Source of the DNA: Acuticoccus mangrovi
Lineage (GTDB): Bacteria; Pseudomonadota; Alphaproteobacteria; Rhizobiales; Amorphaceae
NCBI RefSeq assembly: GCF_016411865.1
Contig: NZ_JAEKJA010000024.1
Span: 1 to 64,000, forward strand
Length of the DNA stretch: 64,000 nucleotides
Direction of reading: 5' to 3'
A program made the position numbers and the translations under genes. Below, one piece after another: positions 715 to 16,250 of the stretch; position 1 is the stretch's first letter, and each line of letters opens with the position of its first letter. The notes beneath the pieces were generated by a model, which was not told where the DNA came from, searched no databases, and saw only the letters and a list, made by a program, of their open reading frames with translations.

Positions 715-1137
715 ATGGCCACCATCCCCGCCCGCGTGAAAGGCATCGATCACGTCGTTCTGCGCGTGACCGACATCGATCGGACCATCGCGTTCTACCA
801 GGACATTCTCGGCCTGCCGCTGGAGCGGATCTTCGACCGGATCGGCCTCTACCAGTTTCGCGCCGGCAGCAGCCTCATCGACGTACAGCCCCTCAAGGAG
901 GGCGACACCCTCGCCCCACCCGCCGAGCGCGGCGTCGAGCACGTGTGTCTCAACATCGAGGGCGATCTCGACGAGGTGCTCGCAGCGCTCGCGGCCCAGG
1001 GCATCACCCCAAGCTTCGGCCCCCTCGAGGTCTACGGCGCGCACGGCTTCGGCACCTCCTTCTATCTGCGCGACCCCGATGGCTACGAGATCGAGCTGAA
1101 GGTCGGCTACGCCCGCAACCCTGTCCGCATGCCATGA
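715..1137 (+). CDS. VOC family (glyoxalase/dioxygenase fold) protein
   Basis: A 140-residue protein of the vicinal-oxygen-chelate superfamily. The opening IDHVVLRVTDIDRTIAFYQD carries the first metal-ligand His of the family, and the C-terminal FYLRDPDGYEIEL carries the usual Glu ligand. Members are metal-dependent glyoxalases, isomerases or extradiol dioxygenases, and the substrate cannot be told from sequence. The ATG at 715 is preceded by GGAGAA at the right distance; a much longer upstream open frame is not protein-like. Its stop overlaps the next start as ATGA, so it is co-transcribed with the hydrolase, and the palindrome at 604-622 probably controls both genes. Confidence 0.85.
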   Translation: MATIPARVKGIDHVVLRVTDIDRTIAFYQDILGLPLERIFDRIGLYQFRAGSSLIDVQPLKEGDTLAPPAERGVEHVCLNIEGDLDEVLAALAAQGITPSFGPLEVYGAHGFGTSFYLRDPDGYEIELKVGYARNPVRMP

Positions 1138-1973
1138 CGATCGCCTTCGAGGAGGGGATCGTCGACGGTCCGGTACCGCTGCGCTACGTGCGCACGGGGC
1201 CGAAGGGCGCGCCCGTGCTCGTGTGCTTGCACGGGCTGCGCGCCTACGCGCACTGGTTCGATGAGTTCACCGAAGTGGCCGCCGGCGACTTCGACGTGAT
1301 TGCGCTCGACCAGCGTGGCCGAGGCGGCTCGGGCAAAGCGCCCGACGGCGACTACACCACCGCCGCCTATGTGGCGGACGTGACGCGCCTTCTCGATGCC
1401 CTCGCCATCGACACCGCCACCCTGGTGGGTCATTCCATGGGCGGCACCAACGCGATCAACTTCGCCGCCCGACACCCGGAGCGGATGGACCGGCTCGTGA
1501 TCGTCGACAGCGCGCCGGTGCTCGCCGCGCCGGGCCTTGAGCGCATGCGCTCGGAGATGGGCCGCACGCCCGCCGCCTTCCCCGACCGGGCCGCGGCCGA
1601 AGCGTTTCTCGGCGGTCTTCACGCCCGCGCCACGGCGCGCAGCCTGAAGATTCGCCTTAAGTGGATGGTGGAGGACCTCGCCGACGGGTCGGTCGGCTGG
1701 CGCATCGACAAGGCGATCTTCGACCCGCGCATGACCCCCGACCCGGCCGAAAAGACCTGGGACGCCCTCAAGGCCATCCGTTGCCCGACGCTGATCGTGC
1801 GGGGCGGGATCTCGGACATGATCACCGCCGAGATCGTCGAAGAGATGGCCGCGGTGATGGCCGACGCCCGCGTCGTCGAGGTGGCGGACGCCGGGCACAT
1901 GGTGATCGAGGAAAACCCCGAGGGGTTCAACGCCGCCGTACTGCCGTTCGTGCGCGAAATGATGCTCGCCTGA
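1134..1973 (+). CDS. Alpha/beta hydrolase
   Basis: A 279-residue serine hydrolase of the alpha/beta fold. It shows the oxyanion-hole segment CLHGLRA, the nucleophile elbow GHSMGG, an acid-bearing RGGISD segment and the catalytic-His segment DAGHMVIEENP near the C-terminus. It starts four bases inside the VOC gene (ATGA), so translation is probably coupled. In ring-catabolic operons such enzymes often cleave C-C or ester bonds after ring oxygenation; that role is inferred from the neighbouring Rieske oxygenases. The substrate is unknown. Confidence 0.85.
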   Translation: MTIAFEEGIVDGPVPLRYVRTGPKGAPVLVCLHGLRAYAHWFDEFTEVAAGDFDVIALDQRGRGGSGKAPDGDYTTAAYVADVTRLLDALAIDTATLVGHSMGGTNAINFAARHPERMDRLVIVDSAPVLAAPGLERMRSEMGRTPAAFPDRAAAEAFLGGLHARATARSLKIRLKWMVEDLADGSVGWRIDKAIFDPRMTPDPAEKTWDALKAIRCPTLIVRGGISDMITAEIVEEMAAVMADARVVEVADAGHMVIEENPEGFNAAVLPFVREMMLA

Positions 1974-2078: not shown

Positions 2079-2735
2079 TCAGGCCGGCTCGACGAGCTCG
2101 GGGATCACCGGGAACACACCCGGCATCACGATGAAGCCCGGCAGATGGCGGAACCGCCCCATCCAGCGCCACACCGCCGGATAGTCTTCGATCATCACCC
2201 CCGCGTCGGGCGCGACGGCCGCGGTGCCGAACACGGCGACATCGGCCACCGTCGGCCGCTCGCCGACGAGCCAGGCGCGCTCCCCGCCCCCTTCGCCGGC
2301 GAGATGATCGTCGAGGATCGCCATCGCGTTCCGGGCAGCCGGCAGCACCGCACCGGGGCCGGCGAGCAGCGTGTCGTCGCTGAACCTTGCGAGCCGCAAG
2401 GCACCGATGGGCGCCATCTCCCGCTCGGCGAACGCCATCCAGTCGAGCACCTTCGCCTGCTCCACCGCATCGTCCGGCAGCCACGTGCGGGCCGGATCGT
2501 ACCGCATCGCGAGATAGCTCAGGACCGCGAGCGGGCCCGTCAGCCTGAGTTCGCCGTCCCGCAGCACCGGCAGGCGCGACTGCGGGGTCACCGAGGCGCG
2601 GAACGCGGCGGTCAGATGCTCGCGCCCCGGATGCATGTCGACCTTGCGCGCGGTGTATTCGAGCCCGAGGAACGACAAGAGAAGCCGGGCCTTATAGGCG
2701 TCGTCGGACAGGATGTAGTCGTAGAGCTCGATCAC
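2079..2735 (-). CDS. Glutathione S-transferase family protein (NdmE-like by context)
   Basis: A 218-residue GST. It has an N-terminal thioredoxin fold with the cis-Pro segment SRLPVLRDGE and a helical C-terminal domain with the conserved ERPTVADVAVFG cap. The start is GTG and overlaps the stop of the Rieske-less oxygenase gene (GTGA), so the two are tightly coupled. GSTs in aromatic catabolism can be maleylpyruvate or maleylacetoacetate isomerases. However, the NdmCDE N-demethylase also contains a GST-like subunit (NdmE) that bridges a Rieske-less oxygenase and its Rieske-bearing reductase. Given its position directly after such an oxygenase, a structural role is a serious alternative. Confidence 0.85.
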   Translation of the reverse strand: MIELYDYILSDDAYKARLLLSFLGLEYTARKVDMHPGREHLTAAFRASVTPQSRLPVLRDGELRLTGPLAVLSYLAMRYDPARTWLPDDAVEQAKVLDWMAFAEREMAPIGALRLARFSDDTLLAGPGAVLPAARNAMAILDDHLAGEGGGERAWLVGERPTVADVAVFGTAAVAPDAGVMIEDYPAVWRWMGRFRHLPGFIVMPGVFPVIPELVEPA

Positions 2736-3667
2736 GCTGCCACTCCCGCGTCGCCGCTACCGGCCACCTGGCCGAGGCGGGTCATCTGATCGCCGGTCCA
2801 GTTGCGCAGAACCGAGAACTCCAGCCCCGACTGGTCCACCCAGCGCCGGTAGGCGACCGAGCTCGCGTCGGAAATCGTCGGCACCTCTCCGAGCGGGCTC
2901 ACCGGCAGTGCCTGGGGGTGCTGGTGGATGAGGATCATCCGGTCCTGGGCGAAGATCTCGTGGTAGAAGTGTAGGATGTCGGTGTCGGTGTTCGTCCGGT
3001 CGAAGATGAACGCGAAGGAGTGCACCACGCAGCTCGTCTCCTCCACCGGCTGAATGAACAGGCCGATGAGGTCCTTGCGCCCCCGCTCCACCAGCGAATC
3101 CTTGTAGATGATCGAGATGAACGGGCGCGGGATGCGATAGTCGTAATAAACGACGGTGTCCTGGGTCGCGACAGCCGCCGAGGCCTTGGGCTGCACGAAG
3201 GAGCAGCCGACGGCCCACAGCTCCGTCCCGTCCTCGCGGAACTCCACATCGTAGCGCGCCACCTCGGCGTTGCCGTAGCCACCGAGGGTGCCGGTGTGGA
3301 CGAAGGAGAAGTGGGAAAGGTCGAAGAAGTTCTCGATCACTCTCAACCCGGAGATCGGCACCGCGATGCGGCCGCGATGGAGGAAGCGCCGGTCGCTCCC
3401 CTCGCTGAACTCGGGAATCGCGATGATGTCCTGCGCGGGCGTGCCGAGGCATACCCACACGAAGCCGTAGCGCTCCTCGACATGGGGGACGGTGCGGCCC
3501 CCGTCCTCGCCGATCTCCCGGCAGGCGAAGCCACCCTGCGGCGCGCGCGAGACCTCGATATCCTGCCCGAGGAGGCGGGTGCGGCGCGGCGCATCGGCGG
3601 TGATGTCGGGGGCGTAGCCCACCACGTACCAGTCGTTGAGCGCGACGGGATCGGTTGTCCGTGTCAT
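2732..3667 (-). CDS. Rieske-type oxygenase catalytic subunit lacking the Rieske cluster site (NdmC-like)
   Basis: A 311-residue non-haem iron oxygenase subunit. Residues about 113-124 give the mononuclear-iron signature NxxDxxHxxxxH (N113, D116, H119, H124), and an acidic residue near 242 is in the usual place for the last ligand. The N-terminal part keeps the start and end of a Rieske fold (about residues 12-75), but both cluster-binding loops, CxH and CxxH, are missing: the chain runs straight from the first strands to YGFVWVCLG. A separate upstream gene in the same operon supplies an intact Rieske domain. Electron transfer must therefore come from another protein, as in NdmC. A 21-base gap separates it from that gene. 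The ATG is preceded by GCAGGAA. Confidence 0.9.
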   Translation of the reverse strand: MTRTTDPVALNDWYVVGYAPDITADAPRRTRLLGQDIEVSRAPQGGFACREIGEDGGRTVPHVEERYGFVWVCLGTPAQDIIAIPEFSEGSDRRFLHRGRIAVPISGLRVIENFFDLSHFSFVHTGTLGGYGNAEVARYDVEFREDGTELWAVGCSFVQPKASAAVATQDTVVYYDYRIPRPFISIIYKDSLVERGRKDLIGLFIQPVEETSCVVHSFAFIFDRTNTDTDILHFYHEIFAQDRMILIHQHPQALPVSPLGEVPTISDASSVAYRRWVDQSGLEFSVLRNWTGDQMTRLGQVAGSGDAGVAA

Positions 3668-3688
3668 GGCGTTCCTGCGCGGTTGGGG

Positions 3689-4354
3689 TCAGGCGGCGGG
3701 CGCGTGGGCGAAGCGGAAGCGGCGGAGCGCGGCGACCAGAGCCGCGCGCTCGTCGGCGGCCATGGCCTCGGACACCGTGAGGTGGACCATGGTGCGGCCG
3801 GGCGCGAGCGGCACCGCGATCACGGCGTGATCGGCGCCGAGCACTGCGCCCCCCTCGGGGTCGAGGGCTAGCGGACCGACGAGCGGGGTCTCGATCAGCG
3901 CGGCGAGGGTCTCGTCGGCGTCCATCCCCACCGACAGGCTGCGCAGAGGCACAAAGCCCGCCGTCGCATCCGGCACGGCCGGCACGTCGCGGCCGCCCGC
4001 CAGCGGCGCACGCGCCCAGATGAAGCCGGCCGCCTCCTCAGCCTCGAACGCTTCGGCCCGGCCCGCCCGCGGCGGCTTCAGCTCCGGATGGGCCGGAATG
4101 AACTTGCACTGGGTGTCGGCCCCGAACGACCAGCCGTGATAGGGGCACAGCACCGTCTCGCCCTGCACCTCGCCGAAGGAGAGGCGCATCCCCCGGTGCG
4201 GACAGCGGTCGCGCCAGACCGACAGCTTGCCCGACGCCGAGCGCCACACCACGATGGGGTATCCGCCGAGCCGCACCGGCTGCAAGCCGCCGGCCCGAAG
4301 CGCGCCCGAGCCCATCAACGGGAACCAGCTGGCGGTCTCATCCACACCGGGCAT
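3689..4354 (-). CDS. Stand-alone Rieske [2Fe-2S] protein
   Basis: A 221-residue protein with a complete Rieske site near the middle: CPHRG (C51, H53) and CPYHGW (C70, H73). A C-terminal tail of about 100 residues has no NxxDxxHxxxxH iron site, so it is not an oxygenase alpha subunit by itself. It is the first gene of the operon with the Rieske-less catalytic subunit and the GST. I placed the start at the ATG at 4354 because GAGGGG lies six bases before it; an in-frame GTG at 4360 has no room for a binding site. In NdmD a Rieske domain is fused to the reductase, whereas here the reductase is a separate divergent gene at 4512. Confidence 0.88.
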   Translation of the reverse strand: MPGVDETASWFPLMGSGALRAGGLQPVRLGGYPIVVWRSASGKLSVWRDRCPHRGMRLSFGEVQGETVLCPYHGWSFGADTQCKFIPAHPELKPPRAGRAEAFEAEEAAGFIWARAPLAGGRDVPAVPDATAGFVPLRSLSVGMDADETLAALIETPLVGPLALDPEGGAVLGADHAVIAVPLAPGRTMVHLTVSEAMAADERAALVAALRRFRFAHAPAA

Positions 4355-4439
4355 ACGCACCCCTCACGGCTTTGATTGTCTCCACTTCAGTTAGCCGGCG
4401 CTTTCGAAGGACTTCAAATCCGAAAGGGCGAGCTTTGCA

Positions 4440-4453
4440 TCAGCTTTTCTGAA
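4440..4453. promoter_or_regulatory. Inverted repeat between divergent Rieske and reductase genes
   Basis: The sequence is TCAG-CTTTT-CTGAA; on the minus strand it reads TTCAG-AAAAG-CTGA. It sits in the 157-base spacer between the divergent stand-alone Rieske gene and the reductase, and matches the palindromes at 604 and 13463. It would allow one regulator to control both directions. A lone TTCAG half-site lies at 4386-4390. Confidence 0.5.
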
Positions 4454-4511
4454 CAAGCGGCCGCGGCCATCGGGGTTAGGGTCCCCCGACGAAGCCGTGA
4501 GGGAGCCCAAA

Positions 4512-5483
4512 ATGATCGAGGTGATCGTGTCGCAGGTGGTGGACGTGGCCAGCGACATCCGGGCGCTGACACTCGAGTCCGCCGACGGCACGCCACTGCC
4601 CGCTTACGAGCCCGGCGCCCATATCGACGTGCACGTTCCCGGCACGTCCAGCCCCACGATCCGCCAGTATTCGCTCTGCCGCGCCCCCGGCGCCGCGCCC
4701 GCCTACGAGATCGCGGTGCAGCGTGCGCCCGATTCGCGGGGCGGCTCGGTGGCGCTCCACGACAACGTGCGCGCCGGCGACCGCATCGCCATCGAGGCGC
4801 CGCGGTGCATGTTCCCCATCGCCGCGGATGCCCGGCGCCATCTGCTCGTGGGGGGCGGCATCGGGGTCACACCACTCCTCTCGATGGCGGAGGCGCTCGC
4901 CGCACGTGGCGCACCGTTCGCGCTCCACTATTGCGCCCGCAACGCCGCTGCGGCCGCCTTCGTGGACCGGCTGGAGGAGGCGCCCTTCGAGGGCCACGCC
5001 CAGCTTCATCTCGACGACCGCGACGGCCGGCCGGACATCGCCGCCCTCCTCGGCCCCTTCGAGGCGGGCACACATGTCTACGTGTGCGGACCGGACGGGT
5101 TCATGCGGGCGGTGATCGACGCGGCGGAGGCGGCGGGGTGGCCGGCAGAACACGTGCACCGGGAGTATTTCACCGTCCCCACCGACACCTCCGCGCCCGA
5201 AGCCGCCGACGCCGACGGCAGCTTCGAGGTGGAGCTGTCGAGTTCGGGCAAGGTCTATGTGATTCCCCCCGGCGCCTCGATCGCCGAGGTGCTGGAGGCG
5301 GACGGGGTGATGCTGCCGCTGTCATGCGAGGCGGGGGTGTGCGGGAGCTGCATGACCAAGGTCCTCGCCGGCATACCCGACCACCGCGACTATGTGCTGA
5401 CGCCGGCAGAGCGGGACTCGGGCACCGTCATGTGCCCCTGCGTGTCGCGGGCGCTGTCGAAGCGTCTCGTCCTCGACGTCTGA
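4512..5483 (+). CDS. Flavin/NADH oxidoreductase with C-terminal [2Fe-2S] ferredoxin domain
   Basis: A 323-residue class IA (VanB/phthalate dioxygenase reductase type) electron-transfer protein. The flavin-binding RQYSL lies near residue 60, the nucleotide-binding segment VGGGIGVTPLLS in the middle with CGPDGF after it, and a plant-type ferredoxin domain at the end with CEAGVCGSC plus a distal Cys in VMCPC. It passes electrons from NADH to an oxygenase, here most likely through the stand-alone Rieske protein and possibly also to the complete Rieske oxygenase at 7143. The ATG at 4512 has GAGGGAG upstream; an in-frame GTG at 4497 is less likely. It is divergent from the Rieske operon across a shared palindrome. 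Confidence 0.92.
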   Translation: MIEVIVSQVVDVASDIRALTLESADGTPLPAYEPGAHIDVHVPGTSSPTIRQYSLCRAPGAAPAYEIAVQRAPDSRGGSVALHDNVRAGDRIAIEAPRCMFPIAADARRHLLVGGGIGVTPLLSMAEALAARGAPFALHYCARNAAAAAFVDRLEEAPFEGHAQLHLDDRDGRPDIAALLGPFEAGTHVYVCGPDGFMRAVIDAAEAAGWPAEHVHREYFTVPTDTSAPEAADADGSFEVELSSSGKVYVIPPGASIAEVLEADGVMLPLSCEAGVCGSCMTKVLAGIPDHRDYVLTPAERDSGTVMCPCVSRALSKRLVLDV

Positions 5484-5608: not shown

Positions 5609-7141
5609 GTGGGGCCGGCCGACGACACGAGCAGGAAGGCGCATGCCGAAGACGGACCCCCTCCGGTGAACGGCCCCGTGACCGCAGCACCCCGCCCCGA
5701 GGCGGACGACGCGGTGAGCGCACGCCTCGCCGCCTGGCTGGCGCACGCGAGCCTTTCGGCGCTTCCGGCCGCCGTGCGCGACCAGACCAAGATCGCGCTG
5801 ATCGACACGGTGGGTGCCGCCATCGTCGGGGCCAACCGGGGCGACGGCCACCAGGCCGCCGTGGCCGCCATGAAGGCCGCCTCCGGCAACCCCGAGGCGA
5901 CCATCTGGGCCACCGGCGAGCGCATCGAGGCCCGCCGCGCCGCCTTCTGCAATGCGATCCACGCCCGTGCCCACGACTACGACGACATCATGGTGTTCCC
6001 GCAGGTGCACGTGTCGGTCTGCACGGTGCCCGCGGCGGTGGCGGCCGCCGAGCTTGCCGCCCAGCGCGAAGGGCCGATCAGCGGCCGGCGCCTCATCGAG
6101 GCGATCGCGGCGGGGGCGGAGATGCAGACCCGCCTCACCCTCGCCTATGCGCCCTATCACGACGCCTCGCGCTTTCCGGTGATGCTGCCGACGCAGGTGT
6201 TCGGCTATTTCGGCGCGGCGGCGGCGGCGGGGCGCGCGCTCGCCCTGTCGACGGAGGCGATGGAAAGCGCCATCGGCCTCGCCCAGATGCAGGCCGGCGG
6301 CACCGAGGAGATGGTCGTCCATGCCACCGAGAGCGTCGGCAAATGCATCTATGCCGGCTTCAGCGTCGACGGGGGCCTGCAGGCGGCGCTGTTCGCCGAG
6401 GCGGGCGTCGTCGCCCGCGGCCGCCCGCTCGAAGGCGAGGCCGGCCTCTTCGCCGCCTTCTTCGGCGGCCGGTTCGATGCCGAACGCCTCACCGGCGGGC
6501 TCGGCGAAGAGTTCCTTTCGCTGCAGCGCTGCATCAAGGCGATGCCCGGCACCCTCGTCGCCCACGCCTTCGTGGAGGCGGGGCTCGCGCTGTGCGCCGA
6601 GCACGGGCTGACGGGGGACGACATCGTCGGCGCGCAGATCGTCGTCGGCCCCTGGGGCAAGGCCATGTGCGAGCCGGCCGCGAGCCGCCGTGCGCCGGAA
6701 ACCGCCTCCACCGCCATGAACTCGATCCCCTTCCTCCTCGCCAACGCCCTCGTGAAAGGCCGCGTCGCGCTCTCCGACATGACCCCCGAGGGCCGCACCC
6801 ATCCCGCGACCCTCGCGATGGCCCGGCGCATCACCCACCGGCTCGATCCTGCGATGGCCGCGCCGAGGGGGCTCGAAGCGGCCCGCCTCGTCCTCACCCT
6901 CGCCGACGGGCGCACCCTCGAAGGGGGGCGGGCCGTGCCGCAAGGCCATCCCGACCGCCCCCTCAGCTTCGACGACATCGCCCGGAAATTTCGCTCGAAC
7001 CTCGCCCCGGACGGTGATCCGGCCAGCCTCGCCCGCGCCGACCGCATCCTTCTGATGGTCGAGCGCCTCGAGGAGATGCCCGACATTGCGCCGCTGATTG
7101 CCTTCCTCTCGCCCGATGACCGGGGACGACACGGAGACTGA
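5609..7141 (+). CDS. MmgE/PrpD family protein
   Basis: A protein of up to 510 residues of the MmgE/PrpD superfamily, which includes 2-methylcitrate dehydratase and many catabolic homologues of unknown substrate. The family pattern is clear from RLAAWLAHASLSALP onward (about residue 37), including IDTVGAAIVGANRG and NAIHARAHDYDD near residues 70-125. There is no in-frame ATG near the start: GTG codons at 5609, 5666, 5678 and 5713 are all possible, so the N-terminus is uncertain and the true start may be up to 35 codons later. Its stop lies one base before the proposed start of the Rieske alpha gene, so it opens an operon of oxygenase and amidase genes. The reaction on the island's substrate is unknown; a dehydration or isomerisation is the family norm. 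Confidence 0.85.
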   Translation: MGPADDTSRKAHAEDGPPPVNGPVTAAPRPEADDAVSARLAAWLAHASLSALPAAVRDQTKIALIDTVGAAIVGANRGDGHQAAVAAMKAASGNPEATIWATGERIEARRAAFCNAIHARAHDYDDIMVFPQVHVSVCTVPAAVAAAELAAQREGPISGRRLIEAIAAGAEMQTRLTLAYAPYHDASRFPVMLPTQVFGYFGAAAAAGRALALSTEAMESAIGLAQMQAGGTEEMVVHATESVGKCIYAGFSVDGGLQAALFAEAGVVARGRPLEGEAGLFAAFFGGRFDAERLTGGLGEEFLSLQRCIKAMPGTLVAHAFVEAGLALCAEHGLTGDDIVGAQIVVGPWGKAMCEPAASRRAPETASTAMNSIPFLLANALVKGRVALSDMTPEGRTHPATLAMARRITHRLDPAMAAPRGLEAARLVLTLADGRTLEGGRAVPQGHPDRPLSFDDIARKFRSNLAPDGDPASLARADRILLMVERLEEMPDIAPLIAFLSPDDRGRHGD

Positions 7142-7142
7142 T

Positions 7143-8312
7143 TTGACCCGCCCCATTGAGCAGCTGATCCGCCGCGGCGCGATCCATCGCGACGTCTATT
7201 GCGACCCCGCCGTGTTCGACCGCGAGATGACGCATATCTTCGACCGCACCTGGGTGTTCCTGGCGCACGAGAGCGAGATCCCCTCGCCCGGCGACTACAA
7301 GACCACCACCATCGGTCGCCATCCGGTGATCGTGAACCGCAACGACGAGGGCGAGATCGGCGCCTTCATCAACCGTTGCCGCCATCGCGGCCCGACGGTG
7401 TGCCGCAACGAGCTCGGCAACGCGAAATTCTTCCGCTGCCCCTATCACGCATGGACGTACAACAACGCCGGCGAACTCGTCGGCGTGCCGATGCCGCAAG
7501 GCTATGGGGCGGACTTCGACAAGTCCCGCCTCGGCCTCGTGCACGTCGCGCGGGTCGCAAGCTATGCCGGCTTCATCTTCGGCTCGATGAGCGCCCACGG
7601 CCCGACGCTCGAGGATCACCTCGGCGGGGTGCGCAAGTTCCTCGACGCCTATGTCGCGACCTCGCCCACCGGCGAGATCGGCGTCTACAAGGGCTACCAG
7701 AAGTGCGTCTACAGCGGGAACTGGAAGTTCCAGCTCGAGAACGGCGTCGACCCCTACCACGTGGGCGCGCTGCACGCCTCGGCCGTCACCCCCGAGGCGC
7801 TGGCCATCTACCGCCAGGGCAAGGGCGCGGTGATCGCGATGGACGGCCACGGCGTGACCGACCACACGGACTGGGGCCCGATGCCGGTGGACGCCAGCCT
7901 GTCGGGCGGCTTCAACCTCGTGATCTTCCCCAACCTCATCGTGCTGCGCAGCCAGATCCGCACGGTGCGCCCCATCGCGGTCGATCGCACCGAGATCATC
8001 ACCAGCGTCGTCAAACTGAAGGGCGTCGACGAGGCGGTGAACCTCCAGCGCATGCGCGACCAGGAGTTCGAGTTCGGCGCCGCCGGAACCTTCTTCGCCG
8101 ACGATCTCGACATCTTCGAGCGCACCCAGCAGGGGCTCAACAGCAGCGCCGTCGACTGGCTGGAGTTCTCCCGCGGCCTCGATCGGGAGGAGATGCGCAA
8201 CGGCTACATGCACGGCTTCATGTCCGACGAGACCCAGCACCGGGGCATGTACGCCAACTGGATGGCGATGATGACCGCCGCCACCCCCGGCATCGCCGAG
8301 GCGGCGGAGTGA
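7143..8312 (+). CDS. Aromatic-ring-hydroxylating dioxygenase, Rieske alpha subunit
   Basis: A 389-residue complete Rieske oxygenase alpha subunit. Residues about 79-104 carry both cluster loops, CRHRG and CPYHAW, and the catalytic domain has ENGVDPYHVGALH with the two iron-binding histidines. Unlike the split system at 2732-4354, both domains are in one chain, and a beta subunit gene follows at once. I chose the TTG at 7143 because CGGAGA is correctly placed before it and homologues begin in this area; an in-frame ATG at 7116 inside the PrpD gene lacks a binding site. Electrons could come from the reductase at 4512, as no other reductase is in the operon. Confidence 0.93.
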   Translation: MTRPIEQLIRRGAIHRDVYCDPAVFDREMTHIFDRTWVFLAHESEIPSPGDYKTTTIGRHPVIVNRNDEGEIGAFINRCRHRGPTVCRNELGNAKFFRCPYHAWTYNNAGELVGVPMPQGYGADFDKSRLGLVHVARVASYAGFIFGSMSAHGPTLEDHLGGVRKFLDAYVATSPTGEIGVYKGYQKCVYSGNWKFQLENGVDPYHVGALHASAVTPEALAIYRQGKGAVIAMDGHGVTDHTDWGPMPVDASLSGGFNLVIFPNLIVLRSQIRTVRPIAVDRTEIITSVVKLKGVDEAVNLQRMRDQEFEFGAAGTFFADDLDIFERTQQGLNSSAVDWLEFSRGLDREEMRNGYMHGFMSDETQHRGMYANWMAMMTAATPGIAEAAE

Positions 8313-8317
8313 GCCCC

Positions 8318-8791
8318 ATGGCCGACCTCAGACACGACATCGAGACCGCCCTCTATCGCGAGGCGCACCTTCTCGATAGCGGCGAGTTCAACGCCTGGTA
8401 TGAGCTCTTCCTGCCCGAGGCGATCTACTGGGTGCCCGCCGGCAGCGGCGACTACGACCCCAACGAGCATGTCTCGATCATCCACGACGACATGACGATG
8501 CTGAAGAAGCGCATCGATCGGCTCTATTCGGGCCACGCCTACGCCCAGATCCCCGCCTCACGCACCCATCGGGCGATCACCAACGTCGAGGTCGAGGACG
8601 AGGGGGACGGCGTCGTCAACGTCCGTTGCGTGATGATGCTGGTGGAGCTCGCGCGCCATCGCCAGACGCTCTACCCCGCGCGCGTGACCTACCGTCTCCA
8701 CCGCGCGGGAGACAACTGGCGCATCGGCTACAAGAAGGTGAGCCTCCTCATGAGCGACGAGCCGCTGCCGGCGGCGGCCTTCCTCTTCTGA
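8318..8791 (+). CDS. Aromatic-ring-hydroxylating dioxygenase, beta subunit
   Basis: A 157-residue small subunit with the SnoaL/NTF2-like fold of ring-hydroxylating dioxygenase beta chains. Typical features are EAHLLDSGEFNAWYELF near the start, the tryptophan-rich IYWVPAG segment, SRTHRAITNVEV in the middle and the C-terminal GDNWRIGYKKVSLL. It is structural in alpha3beta3 oxygenases. The ATG at 8318 has GGAG eight bases upstream and lies five bases after the alpha stop. Confidence 0.92.
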   Translation: MADLRHDIETALYREAHLLDSGEFNAWYELFLPEAIYWVPAGSGDYDPNEHVSIIHDDMTMLKKRIDRLYSGHAYAQIPASRTHRAITNVEVEDEGDGVVNVRCVMMLVELARHRQTLYPARVTYRLHRAGDNWRIGYKKVSLLMSDEPLPAAAFLF

Positions 8792-8823
8792 CCGCCCCGC
8801 CCGCCTCTCACCGGACCCCCGTC

Positions 8824-9057
8824 ATGGCATCAGATACCGGCGCCAAGCCGGCCGACACCTGGCTGATCGGCAACGAGTTCGCGGCCGTGCGCGTCTCCGT
8901 CGACCACCAGGGCCACGATCCACGCCTCAAGATCGAGGATGTCGAGCACGGCACCTCGATCCTGCTCGACCCGCTGATCCTCGCCTCGCTCGCCCGCGGG
9001 TGGCTCGACGATCTCTCCGCGCATCTCTTCCCCTTCAACCCGGAGGACCCCCAATGA
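8824..9057 (+). CDS. 77-residue protein of unknown function in oxygenase-amidase operon
   Basis: I do not recognise a family. The small acidic protein begins MASDTGAKPADTWLIGNEFA and contains a strand-rich middle (AAVRVSVDHQGHDPRLKIED) and an amphipathic C-terminal helix around LASLARGWLDDL. No Cys, signal peptide or membrane segment is present. It is 32 bases after the oxygenase beta gene and overlaps the amidase start as ATGA, so it is almost certainly translated with them. Position suggests a partner or regulator of the oxygenase or amidase; that is inference. Confidence 0.7.
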   Translation: MASDTGAKPADTWLIGNEFAAVRVSVDHQGHDPRLKIEDVEHGTSILLDPLILASLARGWLDDLSAHLFPFNPEDPQ

Positions 9058-10430
9058 GCACGCTCACCGACCTCGGCGCCGCCGAAGCAGCCCGCAAGGT
9101 GCGCGCGGGCACGGTGAGCCCGGTGGCGCTCGTGGAGGCGCACCTTGAGCGCATCGGCGAGGTCAACGGCACCATCAACGCCGTCGTCACCCTCACCGCG
9201 GAGGCCGCCCTCGACACCGCCCGTCGTCTCGAGGCGCGCATCGCGGCGGGGGAGCCGGTGGGGCCGCTCGCCGGCGTCACCGTGGGCGTCAAAGACGTGA
9301 CCCCGGTCGCGGGGGTGCGCACGACGTTCGGCTCGCCCCTCTTCGCCGACCATGTGCCCACGACGAGCGCGCTCGTGGTTGAGCGGCTCCTGGCGGCCGA
9401 TGCGATCCTGATCGGCAAGACCAACACGCCCGAATTCGCCGCCGGCGCCAACACCGTCAACCGCGTGTTCGGAGCGACGGTGAACCCGCACGACACGGCC
9501 CTGTCGGCAGGTGGCTCCACCGGCGGGGGCGCTGCAGGGATCGCGTCGGGCATGTTCGCGCTCGCCGAGGGCACCGATTTCGGTGGCTCGCTGCGGGTGC
9601 CGGCCGCCTTCTGCGGGGTGATGGGCCTGCGCCCCACCGCCGGCCTCGTGCCGAGCCACCCCGTCCCCGACCCCTGGGACATGGGCCGCGTCCACGGCGC
9701 CATCGCCCGTTCGGCGGACGATCTGACGCTGGCGCTCTCGGTGATGGCCGGCCCCTCCACGGCCTCGGCCGTGTCCGCCCCCCTCCCCTGGGCCGACCTC
9801 GGCGCAGCGATCGCGGCCATCGACCCGGCGGGTCTCCGCCTCGGTGTGACGGCCGACCTTGCCGGCATCGGGCTCGATCCGGGGCCGCGCACCGCTTTCG
9901 CAGCGGCCTTGGAACGATTGGCCGGCGCCGGGCTCGAGATCGCCCACGAGGGCTTCACCGTTCCGCAAAGCCGCGCCGCCTACCGCGTCATCCGCGGGTT
10001 CTGGATGGCGACCCAATACGCCTCCCTCAGCGGGCAGGAGGACAAGCTCGGCCCCGCACTCGCCGGCAACATCGCTGCGGGCCGCGCGCTGGGCGCCGAA
10101 GACCTCGCCGCCGCCTGCGCCACCCGCGCCGCGCTCTGGCATCGCTGGCGGGCGCTGTTCGAGACGGTCGACGTCCTCCTCACCCCGACCGTGCCCTGCG
10201 ACCCGTTCCCCATCGAGCAGAACTATCCGAGCGAGATCGACGACCACCGCCTCGACGACTATGTCGACTGGATCGCTCCCACCTACGCGGTGACGCTGAT
10301 GGGGTTTCCGGCCATCTCCGTTCCTTTCGGCCGCACGCCAAAGGGGTTGCCGTTCGGGCTGCAGCTCATCGCCCCGCGCTTCGGCGAGCCGCAGCTTCTG
10401 GCGCTCGCGGCACATCTGGCCGCCCTCTAG
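9054..10430 (+). CDS. Amidase (amidase signature family)
   Basis: A 458-residue amidase-signature enzyme with the complete Ser-cisSer-Lys triad: K80 in VGVKDV, S155 in SAGGSTGGG and S179 in DFGGSLRVPA. It hydrolyses an amide bond, giving a carboxylate and ammonia or an amine. CGGAGGA is well placed before the ATG, which overlaps the 77-aa gene. It is the last gene of the PrpD-oxygenase operon and differs clearly from the AtzE-type amidase at 14856, so the island has two amidases. The substrate is unknown, but it suggests that the catabolised molecule or an intermediate is an amide. Confidence 0.9.
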   Translation: MSTLTDLGAAEAARKVRAGTVSPVALVEAHLERIGEVNGTINAVVTLTAEAALDTARRLEARIAAGEPVGPLAGVTVGVKDVTPVAGVRTTFGSPLFADHVPTTSALVVERLLAADAILIGKTNTPEFAAGANTVNRVFGATVNPHDTALSAGGSTGGGAAGIASGMFALAEGTDFGGSLRVPAAFCGVMGLRPTAGLVPSHPVPDPWDMGRVHGAIARSADDLTLALSVMAGPSTASAVSAPLPWADLGAAIAAIDPAGLRLGVTADLAGIGLDPGPRTAFAAALERLAGAGLEIAHEGFTVPQSRAAYRVIRGFWMATQYASLSGQEDKLGPALAGNIAAGRALGAEDLAAACATRAALWHRWRALFETVDVLLTPTVPCDPFPIEQNYPSEIDDHRLDDYVDWIAPTYAVTLMGFPAISVPFGRTPKGLPFGLQLIAPRFGEPQLLALAAHLAAL

Positions 10431-10655: not shown

Positions 10656-11657
10656 ATGAAAAGCATGATGCTGCCGTACAACCTCGCCTTCTCCGAAGAC
10701 GCCGAGGCCCCGCGCAACGACCAGCCCACCGGTATCCCGCGAATCACCATGCGCCAGCTCGTGTATTTCGTGGCCGCCGCGACCAACGAAAGCGCGATCC
10801 GCGCGGCCGAGCAGCTCAACGTGTCGCCGCCGGCGATTTCGGGGGCGATTTCGGCGCTGGAGTCGATCCTGGGCGAGCAGCTTTTCATCCGCCGCCACGC
10901 CCGCGGACTGATGATGACCGAGGCGGGCCGCCATCTCCTGTTCGAGGCGCGGGACATCATCGACCGGGTGAAGGAGATCGAAGCGCTGCGGCTGCGCGGC
11001 GCGGGTCAGGTGAACCGGCGCGTGTTCCTGGGCTGCCTCGGGGACGTGGCGACGCGCGTCGTGCCGCCGCTGATGCGCACCTTCCAGGAGCTCTACCCCA
11101 ACGCGGACCTGCGCATCACCACCGCGGACTACGACCGGCTGATGACGGAGATGGACGACGGCGCCCTCGATATGGTGCTGGCGCTCGATTTCGAGCGCTC
11201 CCCATCGACCCACGTCACGGTGTTGCAGCAGACACCGGCCTATTGCTGCCTCCCCAAATCCCACCCCCTCGCGGGTGGTCCGGTGGACCTCGCCCACCTC
11301 GTCGACGAGCCCTTCATCATGCTCGACATGGCGCGCACCCGGGAATACTTCCTCGCCATCTTCAGCGATCAGAAGCTCACCCCCAAGGTCGCCTACCGCG
11401 CGGCGAGCGCCGACATGGTGCGCAGCCTGGTGGCACACGGCTTCGGCTATTCGCTCTTGAACTTCTCCGCCCCCGGCGACACCGAGATCACCTACCAGCC
11501 GATCCGCGGCGAGACCCGTCCCGCGAACCTCGTCGCGATCCGCCCGCAGCGCCGCCGCTCCAACATCATGACGGACCGGCTGATCGAGACTGCGCGCGAG
11601 GTGGTGGGCAAGATCGGCCTCATCCCTACCCCTGCCGCGCCCGTCGAGGTGGGCTGA
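10656..11657 (+). CDS. LysR-family transcriptional regulator of the island
   Basis: A 333-residue LysR-type regulator. An unusual ~38-residue N-terminal extension precedes the winged helix-turn-helix (about residues 39-95), followed by the periplasmic-binding-protein-like effector domain. The ATG at 10656 has AGGAGGG at good distance; the upstream ATG at 10629 does not. It lies between the oxygenase-amidase operon and the transporter operon and is the only regulator in the island. It therefore probably binds the TTCAG-N5-CTGAA palindromes at 604, 4440 and 13463. A related AT-rich element, TTCCAGAAAATGG, lies at 10594-10606 upstream of its own start and may be an autoregulatory site. Confidence 0.9.
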   Translation: MKSMMLPYNLAFSEDAEAPRNDQPTGIPRITMRQLVYFVAAATNESAIRAAEQLNVSPPAISGAISALESILGEQLFIRRHARGLMMTEAGRHLLFEARDIIDRVKEIEALRLRGAGQVNRRVFLGCLGDVATRVVPPLMRTFQELYPNADLRITTADYDRLMTEMDDGALDMVLALDFERSPSTHVTVLQQTPAYCCLPKSHPLAGGPVDLAHLVDEPFIMLDMARTREYFLAIFSDQKLTPKVAYRAASADMVRSLVAHGFGYSLLNFSAPGDTEITYQPIRGETRPANLVAIRPQRRRSNIMTDRLIETAREVVGKIGLIPTPAAPVEVG

Positions 11658-11685
11658 GCGCGCGCCACCCCGCCGCCGCCCCTCA

Positions 11686-12480
11686 TCACCGCATCCAGCC
11701 GGCCGTGCGCCGCTCGACGAGGGCGATGGCACCGTACATCGTCAGCGACAGGACGATCAGCACGATGAGGCACGCGTAGGCGAGCGGCACCTTGAACATT
11801 GCCGCCGAGTTCAGGAGCAGGTAGCCGAGGCCCGCGCTCGAGGCGACGAATTCGGCCAGCACCGCGCCGATCACCGCCAGGGTCACCGCCACCTTCGCCG
11901 CGCCGAAGATGTAGGGTAGCGCAAAGGGAAAACGGATCTCGAGATATTGCCGGCTGACCGGCGCATCGAGCGAGCGGGAGAGCTCGATGAGCTCCTGCGG
12001 CGTCTCCCTGAGGCCGGTCGTCGCCGCCACGACGATGGGGAAGAAGGTGATCAGCACCGTGATCAGGATGCGCGACCGGCTGCCCGAGCCGAGCGCCACC
12101 ACGATCAGCGGCGCCACCGCCGCGATCGGCGTCGACTGCACCACCACCAGAAGCGGCACCACGGTCCGGTTCAGGAATTTCGAGCCCACCAGAAGGGCCG
12201 CGAGCGGCAGGCTGAAGGCCATCGAGATGGCGAACCCCGCCAAGACGATGCTGAGGGTGTGGTAGATGTTCTCCCACCACTCCGCGAGCCCGAAATCCAT
12301 CGCCGCGCGCCAGATCGCGGTGGGCCGCGGCAGGAGAAAGCTCGGGATCGCGAACACCCGGCACACGATCTCCCACGCAATCACCAGCACCACGAGAGTG
12401 AGCACCGGCGCCACCGCGATCAACGCCTCTCCCAGCATCTGCGCGATGCGCCCGCCGGCGCTTTCGCCGCGCGCGCTCAC
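11686..12480 (-). CDS. ABC transporter permease (nitrate/taurine/sulfonate type)
   Basis: A 264-residue inner-membrane permease of the SsuC/TauC class with about six transmembrane segments. The cytoplasmic EAA loop is around LIELSRSLDAPVSRQYLEIRFPFALPYIF. The GTG start overlaps the ATPase stop (GTGA). With the ATPase at 12477 and the binding protein at 13563 it forms an importer for a small organic solute. The context with amidases and oxygenases suggests that it imports the island's substrate. Confidence 0.9.
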   Translation of the reverse strand: MSARGESAGGRIAQMLGEALIAVAPVLTLVVLVIAWEIVCRVFAIPSFLLPRPTAIWRAAMDFGLAEWWENIYHTLSIVLAGFAISMAFSLPLAALLVGSKFLNRTVVPLLVVVQSTPIAAVAPLIVVALGSGSRSRILITVLITFFPIVVAATTGLRETPQELIELSRSLDAPVSRQYLEIRFPFALPYIFGAAKVAVTLAVIGAVLAEFVASSAGLGYLLLNSAAMFKVPLAYACLIVLIVLSLTMYGAIALVERRTAGWMR

Positions 12481-13376
12481 GCTCGGGCCTCGGCGGAAAA
12501 CACGCCGCGGCGGATGTCGTTGGCCATATTATTGAAAGCCGGGTCTTCCATCGTCGCGAGGCTTCGGGGGCGCGCGAACGGCACGTTGATCTGCCGCACG
12601 ATCCGTCCGGGCCGGGCCGACATCACGATGATCCGGTCCGACAACAAGAGCGCCTCGGGGATCGAGTGGGTGACGAACACCACCGTCTTGGGCCTTTCCG
12701 CCCAGATGCGCAGAAGCTCGAGCGCCATCTCGTCCCGCGTCAGCGCGTCGAGGGCAGAAAACGGCTCGTCCATCAAGAGGATGTCGGGGTTCTGGACGAG
12801 CGCGCGCGCGATCGCCGCCCGCTGCTGCATGCCTCCCGACAATTCCGACGGCCGGCTCTCGGCGAAGTCGGCGAGGCCCACCACCTCGAGGAGCCGGTCC
12901 GCCTCCTGCTTCAGAGCCGGCGTCACCATCCGTCGCTTGTGGCGGATCGGGAACAGCACGTTGTTGCGGATCGACAGCCACGGCAACAGCGTCGGCCGCT
13001 GGAAAACGATGCCGATGTCGTCGCGTGGCTTCTCCATCGGATAGCCGAAGATGGCGGTCGAGCCCGACGTTGCCGGCATCAGCCCCGCCAGAAGCCGCAG
13101 GATCGTCGACTTGCCGCAGCCGGACGGGCCGATCAGCGCCACGAACTCGTGGCGAAGAACCGTCAGGTTGATGTCGTCGAGAGCGACCACCGGCGCTCCG
13201 CGCGCCCGCTCGAAATGCTTGCTGACACCGGCAAGGGACACGGCCACGGGTTCGGCACTCGACCCGGCCGCAGCGACCTCGGATGAACTGTCAGATAAGG
13301 GCAATGGCGAGACTTCTATCCTGTGGGGCGCGGCATCGCTGGACGGCGGCCCACACGAGGATGACGCATCCCGCAA
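12477..13376 (-). CDS. ABC transporter ATP-binding protein (nitrate/taurine/sulfonate type)
   Basis: A 299-residue ATPase. Walker A is GPSGCGKST, the signature is LSGGMQQR, Walker B is ILLMDEP and the switch His lies in VTHSIPEA. The furthest-upstream in-frame start is TTG at 13376 and the first ~43 residues look non-conserved. GTG codons near 13247, just before VSLAGVSKHF, are plausible true starts, so the N-terminus is uncertain. It is divergent from the binding-protein gene across a spacer with two copies of the island palindrome. Confidence 0.88.
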   Translation of the reverse strand: MRDASSSCGPPSSDAAPHRIEVSPLPLSDSSSEVAAAGSSAEPVAVSLAGVSKHFERARGAPVVALDDINLTVLRHEFVALIGPSGCGKSTILRLLAGLMPATSGSTAIFGYPMEKPRDDIGIVFQRPTLLPWLSIRNNVLFPIRHKRRMVTPALKQEADRLLEVVGLADFAESRPSELSGGMQQRAAIARALVQNPDILLMDEPFSALDALTRDEMALELLRIWAERPKTVVFVTHSIPEALLLSDRIIVMSARPGRIVRQINVPFARPRSLATMEDPAFNNMANDIRRGVFSAEARA

Positions 13377-13426
13377 AGCTTAGGAAAGCGGCACAACCGC
13401 GCGAAGTCATCAATTCTCCCCTTTGA

Positions 13427-13441
13427 TTCAGATTTCCTAAA
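13427..13441. promoter_or_regulatory. Imperfect TTCAG-N5-CTAAA operator-like repeat
   Basis: TTCAG at 13427 is followed after five bases by CTAAA, an imperfect version of the palindrome at 13463, with the two sites 36 bases apart. LysR regulators commonly use a strong recognition site plus a weaker activation site, and this pair fits that layout in the divergent transporter promoter. Confidence 0.35.
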
Positions 13442-13462
13442 TTCGCGAACCCCCGGCCCAAA

Positions 13463-13477
13463 TTCAGAAAAACTGAC
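13463..13477. promoter_or_regulatory. TTCAG-AAAAA-CTGA inverted repeat in the divergent transporter promoter
   Basis: TTCAG and CTGA arms flank AAAAA about 100 bases before the binding-protein gene and about 90 bases before the ATPase gene on the other strand. It has the same form as the sites at 604 and 4440, including the A-rich spacer. Confidence 0.5.
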
Positions 13478-13562
13478 CCTGTCGCCGTCGTAAATTTTCT
13501 CACGCCGTCCCGATGCCGTGGCTAGCATCAGGACCGTACAAACCATTCACATCACACGGGGT

Positions 13563-14576
13563 ATGAGCGACATGAAGGCTTACCTGCTGAAAACCGGCCT
13601 CTTCGCCAGCGCGTTCGCGCTCGTGGCCGGCAGTGCCCTTGCTGCCGACAAGGTCGTGTTCGTGGTAGACTGGTACCCGGCAGGCCACACCGGCTTCACC
13701 CATGTCGGTGTGCAGGAAGGCTTCTTCGCCGAGGAAGACCTCGACGTCTCGATCGAGATCGCCCGCGGCAGCGCCGACGCGGTGACGCGTATCGCCTCGG
13801 GCGCGGCCGACGTCGGCAACGCCAGCATGGGCGCTCTGATGGCCGCCGCCGCCGAGAATGGCGGCACGATTCCCGCCAAGGCCGTGATGGCGATCTACAC
13901 CAAGGCGCCCGATTCTATCGTCACCTACGACGGCAGCGGCATCGACAAGATCGCCGATCTCAAGGGCCGCAAGCTCGGCACCGCCACCTTCAACGGCTCC
14001 AACACGATCTGGCCCGGCATCGCCGCCCTCAACGGCATCGACGCCGACGACGTGCCGCTGACGAAGGTGGACTTCAACGCCGTCGGCTCGATCCTCGCCA
14101 CCGGCCAGGTCGATGCGGTGATCGGCTGGCGCACAAGCGCGCTCGCCTATGTCCCGATGCTGGAAGAGACCGGCAAGACCATGAAGGTGCTCCCCTGGTC
14201 GGACTATGGCTATGAGGGCTACAACTGGTCGCTCGTCGCCTCCGACAACTTCATCGAGGAGCGCCCCGAGGTGCTGAAGCGCTTCGTGCGTGCCTACAAG
14301 AAGACGGTGGAGTTCGTGCTCGCCAACCCCGAAAAGGCCGCGGCCGACGTCCACGGGATGGTCAGCACCACCGACGAGGCGACCAACCTGAAGCAGATTC
14401 AGGAAATGACTCCGATGGTGCGGAACGAGATCTCCGAAAAGGACGGCCTCGGCACCCTCACCCCCGAGCTCGTGGCCACCACGTGGCAGTGGGTCGCCAC
14501 CTCGCAGGACTACGCCGACGACCGCATCGATCCCGACAGCGTGGTCGACCGCAGCTTCCTCCCCTCCGCCGAATGA
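13563..14576 (+). CDS. ABC transporter substrate-binding protein (NMT1/THI5-like)
   Basis: A 337-residue periplasmic protein with a cleavable signal peptide (hydrophobic LLKTGLFASAFALVAGSALA, cut after ALA). The mature part begins ADKVVFVVDWYPAGHTGFTH, the pattern of NMT1/THI5-like and TauA-like binding proteins. A second ATG at 13572 is also possible. It pairs with the permease and ATPase on the opposite strand. The small atzG gene overlaps its stop by four bases, so the binding protein is made together with an amidase. This suggests that it binds the amide substrate. Confidence 0.9.
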   Translation: MSDMKAYLLKTGLFASAFALVAGSALAADKVVFVVDWYPAGHTGFTHVGVQEGFFAEEDLDVSIEIARGSADAVTRIASGAADVGNASMGALMAAAAENGGTIPAKAVMAIYTKAPDSIVTYDGSGIDKIADLKGRKLGTATFNGSNTIWPGIAALNGIDADDVPLTKVDFNAVGSILATGQVDAVIGWRTSALAYVPMLEETGKTMKVLPWSDYGYEGYNWSLVASDNFIEERPEVLKRFVRAYKKTVEFVLANPEKAAADVHGMVSTTDEATNLKQIQEMTPMVRNEISEKDGLGTLTPELVATTWQWVATSQDYADDRIDPDSVVDRSFLPSAE

Positions 14577-14855: not shown

Positions 14856-16250
14856 ATGGCCGCATCCACCACCGCAACTGCCCTTCTCGACAAGGGCGTG
14901 CGCGCCATTGCCGCCGCGGTGCGGACGGGCACGGTGAGCCGCCGGGCGGTGGTCGAGGCGGCGCTCGAACGCATCGCGGCGCTGAACGGTCCCCTCAACG
15001 CCTTCACCGACATCCTCGCCGAGCGTGCCCTCGCCAAGGCCGACGCGGGCGATCGCGCGAGCGCGCCCGACGCGCCCCTCGCCGGCGTGCCCTTCGCGGT
15101 CAAGAACCTTTACGACGTCGCCGGGATCGTCACCCGCGCCGGCTCCCTCATCAACCGGGACGATCCCCCCGCGAGCTCCGACGCCTTTCTCGTGCGACGC
15201 CTGGAGGCGGCGGGCGCGATCCTGGTGGGCGCGCTCAACATGGGCGAATACGCCTACGACTTCACCGGCGAGAACGCCCACGACGGACACTCCCTGAACC
15301 CGCTCGACCCGACACGCATGTCGGGCGGGTCGTCGGGTGGATCGGGCACGGCGGTGGGGTCGGGCATGGTGCCCGCCGCACTCGGTACCGACACCAACGG
15401 CTCGATCCGGGTGCCCGCCTCGTTCTGCGGCATCTGGGGGCTGAAGCCCACCTTCGGGCGGCTTTCGCGCTCGGGCACCTTCGCATTCGTGCCCGCCCTC
15501 GACCACACGGGCCCCATGGCCCGCAGCGCCGGCGACCTCGCCGCCCTCTACGACGCGATGACCGGCGAGGACCCCGAGGACACCCACCAGACCCCCCACC
15601 CCGCGCCGGCCACCCTGCCCGGTCTCGACGAGGCGCCCGACGGCTTGCGGATCGCGGTCGCCGGGGGCTGGTTCAAGCGGGGCCTGACGCCCGAAGCGCA
15701 ACGGGCGCTCGCTCTCGCGGCCGAGGCGCTCGAGGCGACGCGCGAGGTGGAGCTGCCCGGCACCGCCGCCGCCCGTGCCGCGGCCTACGTGCTGACCAAC
15801 CTCGAGGCGGCCGGGATGCATTTCACCCGGCTCCAGCGGCGCGCGGCCGACTACGATCCCGAAACGCGCGACCGGTTCCTCGCCGGCGTCGCCTCGCCCG
15901 CGGTGTGGCTCACCAACGCCCAGCGCGTGCGGGCGACCTATCGAGCCGCCGTCGCGAAGGTGTTCGAGGAGATCGACGTGCTGATCGCCCCCGCGACACC
16001 CTTCCCCGCCTTGAGATCGGGCCAGCAGGAAATCGAGATCGACGGCAGAACGCTGACGGCGCGGCCCAATATCGGACTGTTGACGCAGCCGATCAGCTTT
16101 GCGGGTCTGCCCGTTACGGTGGCGCCGATGCGGCTTTCGGGGCTGCCGGTGGGCCTCCAGATCATCACCCGGCCTTGGGACGAGGCGACGGGCCTGCGCG
16201 TCGGCCGACATCTCGAGAAGGCGGGGCTGACGCTCTCTTCCGGGATCTGA
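14856..16250 (+). CDS. atzE: AtzE-family amidohydrolase
   Basis: A 464-residue amidase-signature enzyme, closest by pattern to AtzE. Diagnostic stretches are GVPFAVKNLYDVAG, GALNMGEYAYDFTGEN and RLSRSGTFAFVPALDHTGP. The triad is K83, S159 and S183, with the nucleophile in TNGSIRVPASFCG. AtzE hydrolyses 1-carboxybiuret together with AtzG, and many proteobacteria carry AtzEG pairs outside cyanuric acid pathways. No cyanuric acid hydrolase or allophanate hydrolase is seen here, so the substrate is probably another amide of the island's pathway. It is the last gene before the second copy of the dispersed repeat. Confidence 0.85.
   Translation: MAASTTATALLDKGVRAIAAAVRTGTVSRRAVVEAALERIAALNGPLNAFTDILAERALAKADAGDRASAPDAPLAGVPFAVKNLYDVAGIVTRAGSLINRDDPPASSDAFLVRRLEAAGAILVGALNMGEYAYDFTGENAHDGHSLNPLDPTRMSGGSSGGSGTAVGSGMVPAALGTDTNGSIRVPASFCGIWGLKPTFGRLSRSGTFAFVPALDHTGPMARSAGDLAALYDAMTGEDPEDTHQTPHPAPATLPGLDEAPDGLRIAVAGGWFKRGLTPEAQRALALAAEALEATREVELPGTAAARAAAYVLTNLEAAGMHFTRLQRRAADYDPETRDRFLAGVASPAVWLTNAQRVRATYRAAVAKVFEEIDVLIAPATPFPALRSGQQEIEIDGRTLTARPNIGLLTQPISFAGLPVTVAPMRLSGLPVGLQIITRPWDEATGLRVGRHLEKAGLTLSSGI

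Follow-up and report, generated by a model that had tools for sequence, protein, structure and literature searches.

A recurrent split relative of NdmCDE in Acuticoccus mangrovi, with the Rieske site and the catalytic iron site on separate proteins

The 64,000-nucleotide stretch of Acuticoccus mangrovi DNA analyzed here (the window), which lies at the start of its contig (C17), contains a real and recurrent split relative of NdmCDE, the 7-methylxanthine N7-demethylase of Pseudomonas putida CBB5. A minus-strand operon encodes, in this order, a free Rieske [2Fe-2S] protein (3689-4354, 221 amino acids), a catalytic subunit that has a non-heme iron site and no Rieske cluster (2732-3667, 311 amino acids) and a glutathione transferase (GST)-like protein (2079-2735, 218 amino acids, GTG start), and a flavin/[2Fe-2S] reductase is encoded divergently on the plus strand (4512-5483). 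This layout, first proposed in a reading of the sequence alone (hereinafter the sequence-only reading), is confirmed by coordinates, reading frames and Pfam domains. With the given starts, the catalytic and GST-like genes overlap by 4 bp, 21 bp lie between the Rieske and catalytic genes, and the divergent Rieske and reductase genes start 157 bp apart; a scan of positions 4300-4600 for promoters and terminators found none. Judged by its parts, the locus can be expected to function as NdmCDE does, but it lacks the feature that defines that system, the fused reductase, and it lies in a separate clade.

The explanation that we regard as the best one overall, and as quite probable, is that of a Rieske-type oxygenase both halves of which are separate proteins. 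NADH would supply electrons to a reductase of the phthalate dioxygenase reductase (PDR) type, for which the divergent one is the probable candidate. The free Rieske protein would receive them next and pass them to the iron site of the catalytic protein, which would activate O2 and oxidize a small N-heterocycle, with the GST-like protein as a putative scaffold holding the Rieske protein against the catalytic protein. The complementarity of the cofactor sites of the catalytic and Rieske proteins favors this scheme; we infer the formation of the complex, the electron route and the scaffold role, and the chemistry and the substrate are speculative.

Multiple observations support the distribution of the two cofactor sites over two chains. 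In the catalytic protein, VanA_C is the sole Pfam domain above the cut-off and Rieske is not matched, and residues N113, D116, H119, H124 and D242 are invariant in all 23 aligned catalytic proteins. The alignment of this protein with GxtA (SxtDIOX) covers chain residues 3-40, weakly (4.4 bits), and then 107-333; the loops of the Rieske cluster are missing, and the flanking strands seem to remain. Its structural model (mean predicted local distance difference test score, pLDDT, of 70, with values below 50 at 119-139, the stretch that holds two ligand histidines) matches GxtA and SxtT with template modeling (TM) scores of 0.69-0.75. Conversely, Rieske is the sole Pfam domain above the cut-off in the free Rieske protein, and C51, H53, C70 and H73 are invariant in 12 of 12 aligned Rieske proteins. 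In a motif census, the iron motif was present in 87 of 87 catalytic proteins (the one in the window included) and the Rieske motif in none, and free Rieske proteins showed the Rieske motif in 44 of 45 cases and the iron motif in 0 of 45, zeros that arise partly by construction because eight frames that matched both profiles were classed separately, as two-domain oxygenases; against the catalytic profile these eight score E 8e-68 or weaker and all 87 retained proteins better than 1e-80. The assignment of an iron site without a Rieske cluster to one protein, and of a Rieske site without an iron site to the other, is thereby upheld, and no chain of the split locus combines the Rieske and catalytic domains of a canonical alpha subunit. 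Moreover, the C-terminal domains of the free Rieske proteins (44 sequences) match the linkers of NdmD-type proteins (25 sequences) at 97% in hhalign (E near 1e-11; at most 0.1% in the reversed control), so that the counterpart of the free Rieske protein is the N-terminal module of NdmD as a whole, beyond the Rieske fold itself.

Comparison with NdmCDE was made through the plasmid cluster of P. putida MT178 (L059) and not the CBB5 sequence; on this plasmid, NdmA (92% identical over the 207 amino acids compared) adjoins NdmC-, NdmD- and NdmE-type genes. Part by part, the window proteins are 40% identical to the NdmC-type protein (catalytic protein, 286 columns), 34% to the N-terminus of the NdmD-type protein (Rieske protein, 157 columns), 41% to the NdmE-type protein (GST-like protein, 222 columns) and 37% to the C-terminal part of the NdmD-type protein (reductase, 310 columns), in agreement with the correspondence drawn in the sequence-only reading. 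According to the report on this system, NdmC lacks a Rieske cluster, NdmE is a GST-like protein postulated to align the extra Rieske cluster of NdmD with NdmC, NdmD is the only reported reductase with such an extra cluster, NdmCDE is an N7-demethylase, NdmA and NdmB are Rieske oxygenases with a cluster of their own that depend on NdmD as reductase, and ndmCDE homologs of unknown function occur in 18 further organisms (PMC4408171). The split locus resembles NdmCDE in its Rieske-less catalytic subunit with an iron site, in a Rieske module located outside the catalytic chain, in a GST-like third protein encoded in the operon and in a PDR-type reductase. In contrast to NdmD, a single chain of Rieske domain, linker and reductase, the Rieske protein of the window is free and the reductase is a separate product of the opposite strand. 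Furthermore, the catalytic subunit does not group with NdmC, the split systems forming a clade of their own that excludes L054, L059 and L060; the neighborhood of the window locus differs, and its substrate probably differs as well. The best solved relatives of both halves are the two-domain Rieske oxygenases SxtT and GxtA, the fold of which is matched by both models, but these carry both domains in one chain and are not known to have a GST partner; NdmA and NdmB, members of the same superfamily, give weaker matches to both halves and, unlike the window catalytic protein, possess their own cluster. With respect to the earlier claim that the gene set is undescribed, no description of a free Rieske protein with a Rieske-less catalytic subunit was found in the open-access literature among the matches listed, subscription papers falling mostly outside it, but such genes already appear in public annotation, under the name 'Rieske (2Fe-2S) protein'.

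The split arrangement is not rare. A profile constructed from 23 catalytic proteins, eight of which come from genomes of the window's order or genus and one of which is the window's own, matched 65 of 397 genomes of that order at E 1e-30 or better (its own genome included); four of these (G046, G086, G120 and G149) matched through a full-length two-domain oxygenase, which leaves 61 of 397 genomes with an NdmC-like gene, split or fused. Among 398 genomes drawn from the phylum, 15 gave matches at E 1e-70, of which six lie outside the window's order, and the seven matches in these six genomes, considered with 1.5-kb flanks, comprise one split order, three fused forms, one unclear long Rieske frame and two with neither. 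Gene arrangements were compared in 70 regions, mostly of 15 kb, from the order survey, together with L013-L016, the plasmid loci L052-L060 and L062, and the window. Before tree construction, 95 catalytic frames were reduced to 87, at 79 loci, by dropping two frames of L061, which comes from the L056 record, and six further frames that were weak or short (one in L056, two in L147, one in L159 and two in L062, a Cupriavidus locus left out because its catalytic gene is spread over two overlapping frames). By locus, the Rieske and catalytic genes form a split operon in 33 cases and a fused, NdmD-like form is found in 25; the Rieske gene is divergent in five, elsewhere in the 15-kb region in four and not in the region in 12 (by protein, 33, 32, 5, 5 and 12, respectively, of 87). 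A GST-like gene is present in 33 of 33 split operons and is absent at one fused locus (L149). The homology search proposed in the sequence-only reading thus finds both the three-gene operon and its fused counterpart, and the Rieske and catalytic genes co-occur across the sampled loci.

The GST and Rieske profiles were run against eight genomes with some or all of their catalytic genes apart from the Rieske gene, and each of the eight has a single full-profile Rieske gene (E 1e-57 or better), located beside a GST-like gene; the other Rieske matches in these genomes reach 2.7e-26 at best and cover the Rieske part only, and G238 has a second, weaker GST match. The class with no Rieske gene in the region is partly an edge effect, because in five genomes (G333, G238, G382, G346 and G292) a distance of about 7-8 kb to a catalytic gene puts the Rieske-GST pair slightly beyond the end of the cut region. 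Six of the eight genomes contain two catalytic genes, the pair being placed between both in G333 and G238 and the second gene lying far away or on another contig in G106, G277, G346 and G292. Since all six have one full-profile Rieske gene, beside a GST-like gene, these observations suggest that one Rieske-GST pair feeds several catalytic subunits.

In ordinary Rieske oxygenases, the iron of each subunit receives its electron from the cluster of the adjacent subunit. With both centers on separate proteins, as predicted for the split systems, electron transfer would be open to study in trans, with a partner omitted, titrated or swapped, and the apparent natural use of one Rieske-GST pair with more than one catalytic subunit would make partner exchange directly testable. 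Moreover, given the 61 genomes of the order counted above, a considerable number of catabolic loci that lack a known substrate would acquire a role that can be tested. A 2025 review anticipates engineered fusions and libraries of redox partners (PMC12445004).

Several arrangements at individual loci were noted in the course of the survey. In the fused-type operons of L055 (Sinorhizobium pSymA), L135 and L150-L154, two tandem NdmC-like genes precede one NdmD-like gene. In L015, a second gene for a Rieske-less catalytic protein (3538-4655, minus strand) adjoins the window-type split operon and falls in the tree with the unlinked and divergent group, not with the window. The catalytic frame of L159 (G335:C1:1011813-1026466, positions 6238-9257) matches only profile positions 69-286, and its product may lack the N-terminal Rieske-fold stub altogether.

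In the catalytic trees, which are quick trees with branch support from the Shimodaira-Hasegawa-like approximate likelihood ratio test (SH-aLRT), all 55 split and unlinked rows, the window included, form one clade (SH-aLRT 98-99) apart from the fused rows; an independent origin of the split in the window is unsupported, as the window falls inside this single clade. Together with L013 (Beijerinckia), L014 (Bradyrhizobium), L015 (Xanthobacteraceae) and L016 (Pigmentiphaga), it makes up a starred subclade of five members, which sits on a long branch (1.66). The fused rows may or may not form one clade: the outgroup, with very long branches, places the root among them in one catalytic tree, whereas a tree with a single fused clade has the higher likelihood and is not rejected by the approximately unbiased test (p = 0.648). 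The direction implied by the earlier wording of an NdmD 'broken' in two is therefore not settled by the trees. In the Rieske tree (119 columns, 12 of 77 inner branches starred), three label changes suffice for the free, fused and two-domain states. Between the Rieske tree and the catalytic tree, path distances show a correlation of r = 0.80 over 59 loci, 0.75 over the 41 loci with a free Rieske protein and 0.97 over 18 fused loci, and none of 999 permutations reached values as high.

Conceivably, a two-domain subunit was duplicated and its copies decayed in complementary ways, one into the free Rieske protein and the other into the catalytic protein, so that each kept one cofactor, with a single Rieske-GST pair serving several interchangeable catalytic subunits; we hold this scenario tentatively, at somewhat below an even chance. 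The C-terminal domain of the free Rieske protein would, under this scenario, be what is left of a former catalytic domain. In its favor, the six genomes with two catalytic genes each have one full-profile Rieske gene, both halves share their best solved relatives, SxtT and GxtA, and the alignment of the Rieske profile with the catalytic profile (96.6%) extends over much of both and takes in a C-terminal 'QP....C..H' stretch. With the Rieske domain set aside, hhalign comparisons of the NdmD linker with the NdmC-like catalytic domain give 77% in global and 83-85% in local mode (reversed controls below 1%). Against it, the C-terminal domain of the free Rieske proteins by itself matches the catalytic domain at only 14%, the combined set gives 37-39%, the NdmD linker matches two-domain oxygenases at 1.1% or less, and, with single sequences, 0 of 74 gave a match at E 0.01 or better. 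The model of the Rieske protein (mean pLDDT 79.7) aligns with GxtA at a TM score of 0.66 of the query (262 columns, root-mean-square deviation 5.8), to which the Rieske fold alone contributes an unquantified share. Taken together, this evidence is suggestive at most. A second, divergent pair of catalytic and free Rieske genes is present in L056 (2996-4347), a Komagataeibacter nataicola plasmid; its Rieske protein lacks one ligand cysteine and is possibly decayed or redox-inactive, and the set was not used as support because of this loss, the strong divergence of its catalytic protein (28%) and its unsure place in the tree.

As for the reaction catalyzed, N-demethylation is plausible and is the single most likely reaction, although we would not give it an even chance. 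A serious competitor, to be granted a substantial minority share of the probability, is that the same complex hydroxylates or otherwise oxidizes a C-H bond of a non-methylated heterocycle, with no removal of an N-methyl group. SxtT and GxtA, the best solved relatives of the catalytic subunit, are hydroxylases. Rieske enzymes perform many reactions, as the same review states (PMC12445004), and the gene neighborhoods suggest ordinary purines as much as methylated ones. In tblastn counts at E 1e-15, which took in the first 11 kb of the window, an importer protein of the BMP type (PnrA-like) is encoded near 22 of the 33 split operons, 11 of the 25 fused loci, 5 of 12 loci with no Rieske gene in the region, 1 of 4 with the gene elsewhere and 0 of 5 divergent loci; the corresponding counts for an 8-oxoguanine-deaminase-like amidohydrolase are 12 of 33, 2 of 25, 8 of 12, 3 of 4 and 0 of 5, and neither occurs at any of the 35 control loci (L017-L051), which are mostly ordinary two-domain oxygenases from other taxa and not a matched control. 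Looser single-linkage clustering finds the BMP family at 30 and the deaminase family at 34 of the 79 loci; the representative of the latter reaches 372 bits where the cut-off is 532, so that the name is a family hint only. Against C-H oxidation stand the N7-demethylase activity of the characterized relative NdmCDE (PMC4408171) and the N-demethylation context of the set on a Komagataeibacter plasmid from kombucha. On this plasmid, which is the best link of the split systems to methylxanthines, an intact Rieske-catalytic-GST set adjoins a PDR/VanB reductase, and an NdmA-like protein (74.5%), frmR, a glutathione-dependent formaldehyde dehydrogenase and fghA are encoded as well. Literature searches on homarine, 8-oxoguanine deaminase and 7-methylguanine returned nothing bearing on the split locus among the matches listed.

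Several findings weigh against the proposed scheme. Shared species history contributes to the congruence of the trees. In the window's five-member subfamily, tblastn detected no neighboring purine importer or 8-oxoguanine-deaminase-like gene (the edge of the L015 region encodes a fragment, from the C-terminus, of an 8-oxoguanine-deaminase-like protein), and no formaldehyde-handling gene was identified among the 18 window proteins scanned. A PDR-type reductase was found at 4 of 33 split operons (L053, L056, L109 and the window), several of the regions being short or cut by contig ends, and a tblastn search with the window reductase found none in the sequence examined for L013-L016, an absence that is clearer for L013 and L014, given that the L015 sequence spans only 4.7 kb and that of L016 starts about 270 bases before the Rieske gene. 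Since purine-type neighbors were not found and an NMT1-type importer and ring hydroxylase genes occur instead, the window subfamily probably acts on a different heterocycle. An amidohydrolase of L014, considered as a clue to the substrate, is closest to purine/triazine deaminase models (192 bits against a cut-off of 522), and no substrate was assigned from it.

The reductase itself is a clear member of the PDR/VanB family, with FAD/FMN and NAD domains, a C-terminal plant-type [2Fe-2S] domain (Fer2) and a match to phthalate dioxygenase reductase (2pia) at E 3e-58. It lies between the split set and the genes of a complete two-subunit ring hydroxylase (alpha/beta, 7098-8791), and may serve either or both. 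That it belongs to the hydroxylase and that the split set is fed by an unlinked reductase is the less favored yet appreciable possibility, roughly one chance in three in our judgment: the reductase and alpha/beta genes share a strand opposite to that of the split set, and 29 of the 33 split operons are without a reductase in the region examined. Conversely, L014 and L016 retain the alpha/beta genes (alpha 72% identical) and are also without a reductase in the sequence examined, and L053 and L159, the latter not in the tree, carry Rieske, catalytic, GST and reductase genes as one run. We presume that the divergent reductase is the electron source of the split set, but the linkage is not conserved, and the four-part reading consequently rests on adjacency in one genome and on similarity to NdmD. 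The conserved unit comprises three genes and not the four originally proposed. In L109 (6352-10639), a complete Rieske oxygenase, a reductase, a free Rieske protein, a catalytic protein and a GST are encoded in one run, so that two-domain and split systems adjoin each other.

With respect to the GST-like protein, it is unlikely that it is a glutathione-dependent pathway enzyme and not a scaffold. It has both GST N- and C-terminal domains (Pfam GST_N/GST_C) and is distantly similar to maleylacetoacetate isomerase (61.9 bits against a cut-off of 171), but it reads 'TGPLAV' where the two best solved GSTs have 'ESNAI'. The ESxAI motif is a conserved glutathione-binding motif of glutathione transferases; among 14 family rows it is absent from this position except for near-forms, D-S/A-x-A-I and ESSAM (L058). 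Furthermore, NdmE is reported to lack any known catalytic activity (PMC8055839), and is described as needed for solubility and activity (PMC4408171). Finally, a local assembly deletion or gene decay as the cause of the missing Rieske loops, which the position of the window at a contig start might suggest, is rejected with near certainty, because the arrangement recurs in other genomes, because the four closest relatives, from named genomes and at 61-66% identity, likewise lack the cluster instead of having the complete Rieske domain that would have pointed to such an error, and because the iron ligands are conserved throughout the aligned family.

The genes around the split locus are partly shared within the subfamily. 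Downstream of the reductase on the plus strand, an MmgE/PrpD-family protein (5609-7141; Pfam; 47% identical to its counterparts in L014 and L016) is followed by the alpha subunit of the ring-hydroxylating oxygenase, which is complete (7098-8312; Pfam Rieske and Ring_hydroxyl_A; 72% to both), and its beta subunit (8309-8791; Pfam Ring_hydroxyl_B; 48% to L014 and 56% over 82 of 160 residues to L016); this block (5609-8791) corresponds to L014:11341-14894 and L016:4067-6900. On the other side of the split set, a VOC protein (715-1137, plus strand; 61-66%) and an alpha/beta hydrolase (1134-1973, plus strand; 52-55%), both identified by Pfam, are common to the window, L013, L014 and L016. A LysR regulator and an NMT1/SsuA-type ABC importer with permease, ATPase and binding protein (10659-14576; Pfam; 54-65%) are common to the window, L013 and L014. 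After the hydroxylase beta gene, the window encodes a small protein of about 77 amino acids (about 8824-9057, plus strand), and a protein similar to it by eye, without a Pfam match, is encoded at L014:11102-11416 (minus strand). Two amidase-family genes (9054-10430 and 14856-16250) lie on either side of the LysR gene and the ABC importer.

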